Assembly: GCF_019669085.1 (NCBI RefSeq)
Contig: NZ_AP024401.1
Location: forward strand, 62,001 to 126,000
Source of the DNA: Borrelia sp. HM
GTDB lineage: Bacteria; Spirochaetota; Spirochaetia; Borreliales; Borreliaceae
DNA length: 64,000 nucleotides
Direction of reading: 5' to 3'
Below the pieces are notes generated by a model that was not told the origin of the DNA, searched no databases, and saw nothing but the letters and a program-made list of their open reading frames with translations. Shown here piece after piece: positions 59,269 through 60,993 of this stretch; within the stretch, counting starts at the first letter, position 1; each line of letters begins with the position of its first letter. A program made the translations under genes and the position numbers.

Positions 59269-60954
59269 TCAATCATCATCCTTATTAAGTTTATAAAGCT
59301 TACCTGTCTCACCTTGCCTTTCAAGCTTATCATCTTCTTTCATTTCAATATATGCTTTAATTCCCTGTTTAACATTATCAGATGCTGCAACAACACTAGC
59401 CTTAAAAAGTTTTTTTGGAGAATAACTCCCAATAGCTTGCTTTATATAATGAGCATTTGTTCCATAATCAATTCTAATTTTATTATCCACTATAACAATA
59501 TGTAAAGCACCAGTTTTTTTAAGGATATCCTCAGATACAAGTTCAGAACTAAAAACCACAAAGTTTAAATATGTTGATATGATACTATATTCTTGAATAT
59601 TATCAAGACCACCAAGACCCTTAGAGACAAGATGTGCAATCCCTATTCCTTCGACTTGTCCTTCACTACCCTCAAAAAATGGATCACCAACACCAAAAAT
59701 TTGAAAATCAAAATAATTATAAACCCATTTAAAAGTTAAATAATACAAAACAAAAAATGCAAATCCTAATGGCAATAAATATAAACAATTTGTCTTGGCA
59801 TGTCCTTGTAATATCCCAAACATGAAAAAATCAAAAAATCCAGCAGAAAAAGTAACTCCAACTGCAATATCAAATATGTTAGCAATTAACAATGCAAATC
59901 CTGTATAAATAGCATGAATAAAATAAAGTAAAGGTGCTGTAAAAATAAATAAGAACTCTAAAGGTTCTGTAATTCCAGTTAAACAAGCTGCAAGAGCACC
60001 TGAAAACAACAAAGGTGAAATTTTACTCTTGTCATCATGAATTATTCCTTTATAAACTCCAAATGCTGCACCAGGAAGCCCAAACATGATAGATAGATAA
60101 AATCCACTATTAAATCTAGAAATACCTGAATGAAACTTGGTAAGATTTGGGTCTGCTAATTGAGCATAAAATATATTTTGAATACCACCAAAAACTTGAC
60201 CATTAATAACTTCAGTTCCTCCTAATGGAGTAAAATTAAAAGGAAATGTAAGAATAGAATGAAGACCTAAAGGAATCAAAATTCTATTTAAAAATCCATA
60301 AAGAAAACTATCAAAATAATTAAACTTAGAAATGAACAAGCCAAAAGAAGTAATTAATGCATTAAGATGTGGCCAAACTAAAACAAATACTATTCCTAAC
60401 AAAATACAAAAAGGAAAAATTACTATTAGAACAAACCGAAAACCAGAAAAAAAACTAAAAGGTTCTGGTAATTCAATGCAATAAAATTTATTGTGTAAAT
60501 ATCCAACTAAAAGTCCAACTGCTAAAGAACCAAAAATACCTGTATTTAAAGTTTGAATTCCTAAAATATTTATTTGCCCAACAGAAGACATTAAATTAGG
60601 CTCAGCAAGTCTTGAAAACACATCTAGAAAATAATTCTCAGTAATATTGAAAATCAAATATCCAATAATACCTGAGAGTGCGGCAAGACCTTTTTGCATT
60701 CTTGAAATCCCAATAGTAATTCCTACAACAAAAAGTAATGGAATATTTAAAATAATAATATTACTTGTGGCTTTTATAAGGCCTAAAATAACTTTAAATA
60801 CGATATTATCAATATAAAATAAATTAGAAGGATCTGACATTGCAGAGACAATTCCAAGCATTAAACAAAAGATTGTCAAAACAGAAATTGGCAATCTTAC
60901 CGCATTAGAAAACTTCTGCAAATTTGCAAATCTAAGAATCTCGAAAAAATTCAT
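59269..60954 (-). CDS. malX: PTS IIBC permease, MalX/PtsG family, with degenerate IIB
   Basis: The 561-residue protein has an IIC sugar permease domain (about 1-450, ten membrane segments; AACLTGITEPLEFLF is the family signature near 320) and a C-terminal IIB-like domain (about 460-545). In IIB the phospho-Cys should sit in a DACITRLR-like motif after GGLDNI; here the sequence is EYSIISTYLNF with no Cys. Phosphoryl transfer may need another IIB in the cell. ATG 60954 is preferred because GGAGAGG precedes it; ATG 60972 is alternative. The position recalls BB0116. Confidence 0.85.
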   Translation of the reverse strand: MNFFEILRFANLQKFSNAVRLPISVLTIFCLMLGIVSAMSDPSNLFYIDNIVFKVILGLIKATSNIIILNIPLLFVVGITIGISRMQKGLAALSGIIGYLIFNITENYFLDVFSRLAEPNLMSSVGQINILGIQTLNTGIFGSLAVGLLVGYLHNKFYCIELPEPFSFFSGFRFVLIVIFPFCILLGIVFVLVWPHLNALITSFGLFISKFNYFDSFLYGFLNRILIPLGLHSILTFPFNFTPLGGTEVINGQVFGGIQNIFYAQLADPNLTKFHSGISRFNSGFYLSIMFGLPGAAFGVYKGIIHDDKSKISPLLFSGALAACLTGITEPLEFLFIFTAPLLYFIHAIYTGFALLIANIFDIAVGVTFSAGFFDFFMFGILQGHAKTNCLYLLPLGFAFFVLYYLTFKWVYNYFDFQIFGVGDPFFEGSEGQVEGIGIAHLVSKGLGGLDNIQEYSIISTYLNFVVFSSELVSEDILKKTGALHIVIVDNKIRIDYGTNAHYIKQAIGSYSPKKLFKASVVAASDNVKQGIKAYIEMKEDDKLERQGETGKLYKLNKDDD

Positions 60955-60993
60955 CTCACTGAGCCTCTCCATTCAAAAACTTAGAACAGTAAT

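Follow-up and report, generated by a model that had tools for sequence, protein, structure and literature searches.

Among the closest described systems is the glucose transporter of Escherichia coli, PtsG (EIICB-Glc), in whose IIB domain C421, R424 and R426 are the catalytic residues; the dephosphorylated domain (IIBGlc) signals to Mlc, and Mlc release depends on phosphorylation cycling. In the IIC domain of PtsG glucose is held by R203, H211, T297, E298, F337 and S338, of which E298 sits next to the sugar OH-6 (PMC11393339). In the linker of PtsG, at the KTPGRED motif, the change P384R produces a “relaxed” transporter that works by facilitated transport, and G385A leaves <10% phosphorylation activity; “uncoupled” mutants of PtsG take glucose in without phosphorylating it, and alanine at most KTPGRED positions alters the E. 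coli protein little (PMC3901232).

Relapsing-fever Borrelia rely on the sugar that they import, and the window analysed here (64,000 nucleotides of the 914,768 bp chromosome of Borrelia sp. HM, a member of that genus) carries on its minus strand, at 59269..60972, a 567-amino-acid open reading frame that its match to the IIC family PF02378 (1.4e-62; 212 bits against a cut-off of 30.7) and its orthologs identify as a Glc-family IICB-like transporter. It lies between a hemolysin-III-like gene and rpsF-ssb-rpsR-rplI-dnaB, names that we assigned by eye from the translations. Its B. duttonii ortholog is BDU_119, and from published gene order and homology we take the gene to be B. burgdorferi bb0116 (malX-1), the name used below. 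Orthologs are present in all 36 Borreliaceae genomes sampled (18 Borrelia, 17 of them with an intact malX-1, and 18 Borreliella), and the single broken copy is that of B. recurrentis. The name MalX, given to the product in the original prediction, is not borne out by the TIGR02004 model (MalX, maltose/glucose IIBC), against which it scores 325.6 bits where the curated cut-off is 632.2; it falls under all curated PTS cut-offs, and databases still annotate it as an ordinary PTS permease or phosphotransferase. The product consists of the IIC domain, a stretch with no Pfam assignment, and a tail, in that order.

The phmmer alignment of this protein to E. coli PtsG (9hnp/9srx/8qsr, E ~1e-59) covers residues 14–517 and is gap-free around the active site, where it pairs Cys421, the phosphocysteine, with Ile465 (codon at 59578..59580, minus strand), Arg424 with Tyr468 and Arg426 with Asn470. 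The site reads EYSIISTYLNF instead of the PTS IIB motif CxTRLR, just as had been noticed from the sequence. Cysteines occur in MalX-1 at positions 36, 165, 189, 330 and 396 only, so that the Cys-free end is in fact 171 residues long and not just the 110 first remarked upon; because no Cys follows residue 396, a shifted alignment, which the original prediction had named as its possible undoing, cannot restore the site. The PTS_EIIB model (PF00367) has no match in the window’s MalX-1 and a sub-threshold match in one ortholog (L018), and in two paralogs from this genome, PtsG and the NagE-like protein, the model does detect the domain. Of the 17 intact Borrelia orthologs, 12 carry V and 5 carry I at site 465, and the broken B. 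recurrentis copy has V, whereas all 18 Borreliella orthologs keep the Cys; the loss is thus general for the genus Borrelia and does not extend to Borreliella. The Cys is also present in every same-genome paralog read (33 PtsG, 12 MalX-2-type, 3 NagE-like and 2 GlvC-like proteins) and in 19 of 19 proteins read from other spirochaetes. With independent alignments, a fold match (below), a Cys-free end and the same state in 17 species, an error of alignment, frame or sequencing can for practical purposes be dismissed. A literature search that lay mostly within journals free of subscription found no report of this loss.

Thirteen IIB positions are at least 90% conserved among 40 relatives, and Borrelia MalX-1 keeps nine of them; the four lost are C421, R424, R426 and Q456, with R426 and Q456 surviving in some Borrelia species. 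In Borreliella MalX-1, R426 is the sole loss among the 13. The chance that all three catalytic residues would fall among four lost positions is 10/715 = 0.014 (hand calculation), and the positions lost are those of the active site and not structural ones. In a tree built from the IIC domain only, by a quick method, MalX-1 forms a Borreliaceae-only clade on a stem of ~1.2 changes per column, a single change explains the Cys pattern, and the branch of genus Borrelia has 61% support. Since the losses of the linker motif, H212 (both below) and R426 are common to both genera, the departure from group translocation began before the Cys was lost; the comparison indicates that the move away from normal coupling started before the Borrelia/Borreliella split, and that the Cys was lost later, in Borrelia only. 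The missing cysteine is in this way confirmed as a loss that is fixed in the genus, stepwise and limited to the active site.

The IIC membrane domain spans ~residues 15–425 (59698..60930, minus strand), as delimited by residue tables and structural match. Its sugar-site residues R203, H211, T297, E298, F337 and S338 (E. coli PtsG numbering) are invariant, and MalX-1 matches bcMalT (5iws) with a VIA-align Z of 33.9 and 3.1 Å over 397 residues, PtsG being a further structural match. Substitutions in this domain are S/A at G13, found in MalX-1 only, and S at H212, which is shared by both genera and is not diagnostic, since NagE-like proteins have Q there. At the place of KTPGRED the linker (residues 424–430; 59683..59703, minus strand) reads QIFGVGD in the residue tables. 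The motif is absent in all 35 intact orthologs of both genera, which have F/L at P384, I/L at T383 and a residue other than R at R386; among the 40 relatives its T, P, G and R each show at least 93% conservation. F at V12 was considered as a further sign of uncoupling and rejected, being natural in Borrelia PtsG too.

Although its catalytic residues are lost, the IIB domain (residues 443–516; 59425..59646, minus strand) is predicted still to be folded. The AlphaFold2 model of MalX-1 has a mean pLDDT of 77 (66–88 in the IIB blocks) and gives the domain the topology alpha-beta-beta-alpha-beta-beta-alpha; modelled residues 444–520 superimpose on 3bp3, 1o2f and 3bp8 at 1.0–1.1 Å with target TM-scores of 0.82–0.87, and Z against the solved IIBGlc structures is 12.4–12.9. 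Six separate species pairs give an IIB pN/pS of 0.238 (binomial p 2.6e-14 against neutrality) and an IIC value of 0.195. Over all pairs, which are not independent, the omega of Borrelia MalX-1 is 0.23 (IIB) and 0.20 (IIC), the latter again a sign of purifying selection, and that of Borrelia PtsG is 0.19 and 0.14, respectively. No indels occur in IIB among the 17 intact Borrelia orthologs, and a faster decay of the domain after the Cys loss is not seen, its identity to relatives being 0.314 in Borrelia versus 0.329 in Borreliella. The domain is not decaying, and outside the lost positions it is under purifying selection. The C-terminal tail that follows it (residues 517–567; 59272..59424, minus strand) is conserved in Borreliaceae and has no match in Pfam or in the other spirochaetes sampled; its 51 residues are 63% identical between the two genera, versus 48% for IIB, and it is modelled as two low-confidence helices.

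Several other sugar genes of the Borreliaceae were read in the course of this work. A stand-alone IIB-fold protein of the BB0367 type (86 aa; L003:1477-1737, plus strand, at ~384.78–385.04 kb of its own chromosome, between an aminopeptidase gene and gpsA) is present in 36 of 36 Borreliaceae genomes; no counterpart turned up in the other spirochaetes sampled. It has an invariant Asp for the Cys, in the motif KD[ILV]TRI[KR]ILVDS, in all 29 sequences read, and its AlphaFold2 model (pLDDT 93) lies 1.4–1.7 Å from IIBGlc (1o2f/3bp3). In fed nymphs bb0367, malQ, crr and ptsH-2 are higher (PMC9974103). Near its right end the chromosome of relapsing-fever species carries a NagE-like EIICB (L001:1381-2808, minus strand; also L048 and L049), and a gene that by eye is phosphodiester-glycosidase-like (NAGPA-type) lies close to it. 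A chromosomal GlvC-like EIICB occurs in five Borrelia genomes (G012–G016), adjoined in both loci read (L050, L051) by a gene that by eye is of GH4 type, which suggests a putative alpha-glucoside PTS that is absent from other Borrelia genomes. Two tandem MalX-2-type EIICB genes are found on a small replicon in several Borrelia (L043, L044, L054); most Borreliella have one.

What can such a protein do? Because the Cys, R424, R426 and Q456 are lost and no other Cys is present in the domain, sugar phosphorylation through its own IIB is, given the established chemistry of IIB domains, impossible for Borrelia MalX-1; the evidence supports the original prediction on this point. That prediction had also offered three roles, a borrowed IIB, a facilitator and a sensor, and had not ranked them. 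The linker substitutions favour the second, and the other two have the lower probabilities indicated below. We infer that MalX-1 of Borrelia would be a former glucose-family PTS IICB whose IIB carries phosphate no more and whose IIC elevator probably still binds and moves sugar, with glucose or an alpha-glucoside as candidates. Transport would most likely be uncoupled facilitation, and the free sugar would pass to cytosolic enzymes, a ROK sugar kinase and MalQ, with the dead IIB perhaps persisting as a folded module that has a structural or regulatory role in the transporter. This is the best supported of the three options, and we put its chance at somewhat below even. In its favour are the loss of four active-site positions of IIB beside nine that are kept, the invariant sugar site of an IIC domain under purifying selection, the linker substitutions, one of which falls on the position of the relaxed PtsG mutant P384R, the S/A at G13, the existence of the cytosolic enzymes and the state of B. 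recurrentis. A ROK kinase without HTH (L107:1492-2424, plus strand) is closest to the BglK/glucokinase models, under their cut-offs, and malQ is present in 36 of 36 genomes (split in one), which would allow the use of sugar that enters without phosphate; with a sugar kinase that runs on ATP, Borrelia would have a way around the PTS. Both malX and malQ carry frameshifts in B. recurrentis, in our reading of the genome as in the published one (PMC2525819), a co-loss that concerns a single species with ~20 broken genes.

The same broken B. recurrentis copy (PMC2525819) could be taken as a sign of a gene that is being lost by drift, with the absent Cys as the first visible lesion. We consider this very unlikely, since 17 of the 18 Borrelia genomes have an intact reading frame with no indel in IIB, the pN/pS of that domain contradicts neutrality, and the lesions are at the active site and not at structural positions. 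A donation of phosphate in trans, in which the IIB of PtsG, of the NagE-like protein or of plasmid MalX-2 docks on the MalX-1 IIC and group translocation continues, is somewhat unlikely. The same genome does encode Glc-family IIBs that have the Cys, together with just one Crr, and the IIC sugar contacts are intact, including the E298 next to OH-6 (PMC11393339). However, in the literature consulted no case was found of phosphate passing from an IIB to a noncognate IIC in the glucose family, B. subtilis PtsG loses most of its function when IIB and IIC are separated (PMC6148471), MalX-1 lacks the linker motif and H212, and its own dead IIB, which is under selection, would be a competitor at the docking site. 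A stand-alone IIB as dedicated donor was rejected, the only one found being the BB0367-type protein with its Asp at the Cys position.

We also think it improbable that MalX-1 is a sugar sensor whose non-phosphorylatable IIB, perhaps with the tail, signals to a ROK/Mlc-like repressor or to another PTS protein. Such a role would fit an IIB that is kept folded without catalysis, a tail better conserved between genera than IIB, the presence of a NagC/Mlc-like ROK regulator with HTH, and the match of modelled IIB to Mlc-bound IIB (3bp8) at 1.0 Å; on the other hand, that regulator is far under the Mlc and NagC cut-offs, and phosphorylation cycling is impossible here, so only the conformation of IIC could provide the signal. 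Of a similarly low probability is a PTS-derived sugar transceptor in which the dead “pseudo-IIB” and the Borreliaceae-specific tail would gate or report on IIC, possibly together with the BB0367-type Cys-less protein.

If the IIB domain is dead, any metabolic model of genus Borrelia in which each sugar taken up through MalX-1 costs one PEP is wrong, and the orthologs of the Lyme and the relapsing-fever bacteria cannot be equated. In the Lyme agent, infectivity for mice is intermediate to low in bb0116 transposon mutants (PMC3485029), larval ticks did not yield such mutants (PMC6516651), and the gene is RpoS-upregulated in strain 297 (PMC6719511). These phenotypes concern Borreliella, in which the Cys is kept, and on the same proviso should not be carried over to Borrelia.

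Among known proteins, Borreliella burgdorferi MalX-1 (BB0116) is at the same locus, is 62–63% identical, has the same tail and has equally lost the linker motif, H212 and R426; unlike Borrelia MalX-1 it keeps C421, R424 and Q456, which could still let its IIB take up phosphate. SacX of Bacillus subtilis is likewise a PTS transporter paralog that acts on a regulator and does not sustain growth when its sugar is supplied (PMC6148471), but the SacX IIB is phosphorylatable and that of Borrelia MalX-1 is not. E. coli PtsG (8qsr, 9hnp; IIB 1o2f, 3bp3, 3bp8) shares the order and folds of IIC and IIB and the sugar-site residues, and differs in that MalX-1 is without the phosphocysteine, R424 and KTPGRED, does not conserve R426 or Q456, has S at H212 and carries an extra 50-aa tail. 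The “relaxed” and “uncoupled” PtsG mutants (P384R, V12F and others) resemble the behaviour proposed here, and MalX-1 naturally has F/L at P384; those, however, are single changes obtained in the laboratory in a protein whose IIB is intact, whereas the state of MalX-1 would be natural and fixed in the genus. MalX-1 could serve as a natural test case for a PTS elevator transporter parted from phosphorylation, a condition that the literature consulted describes mainly in laboratory mutants.
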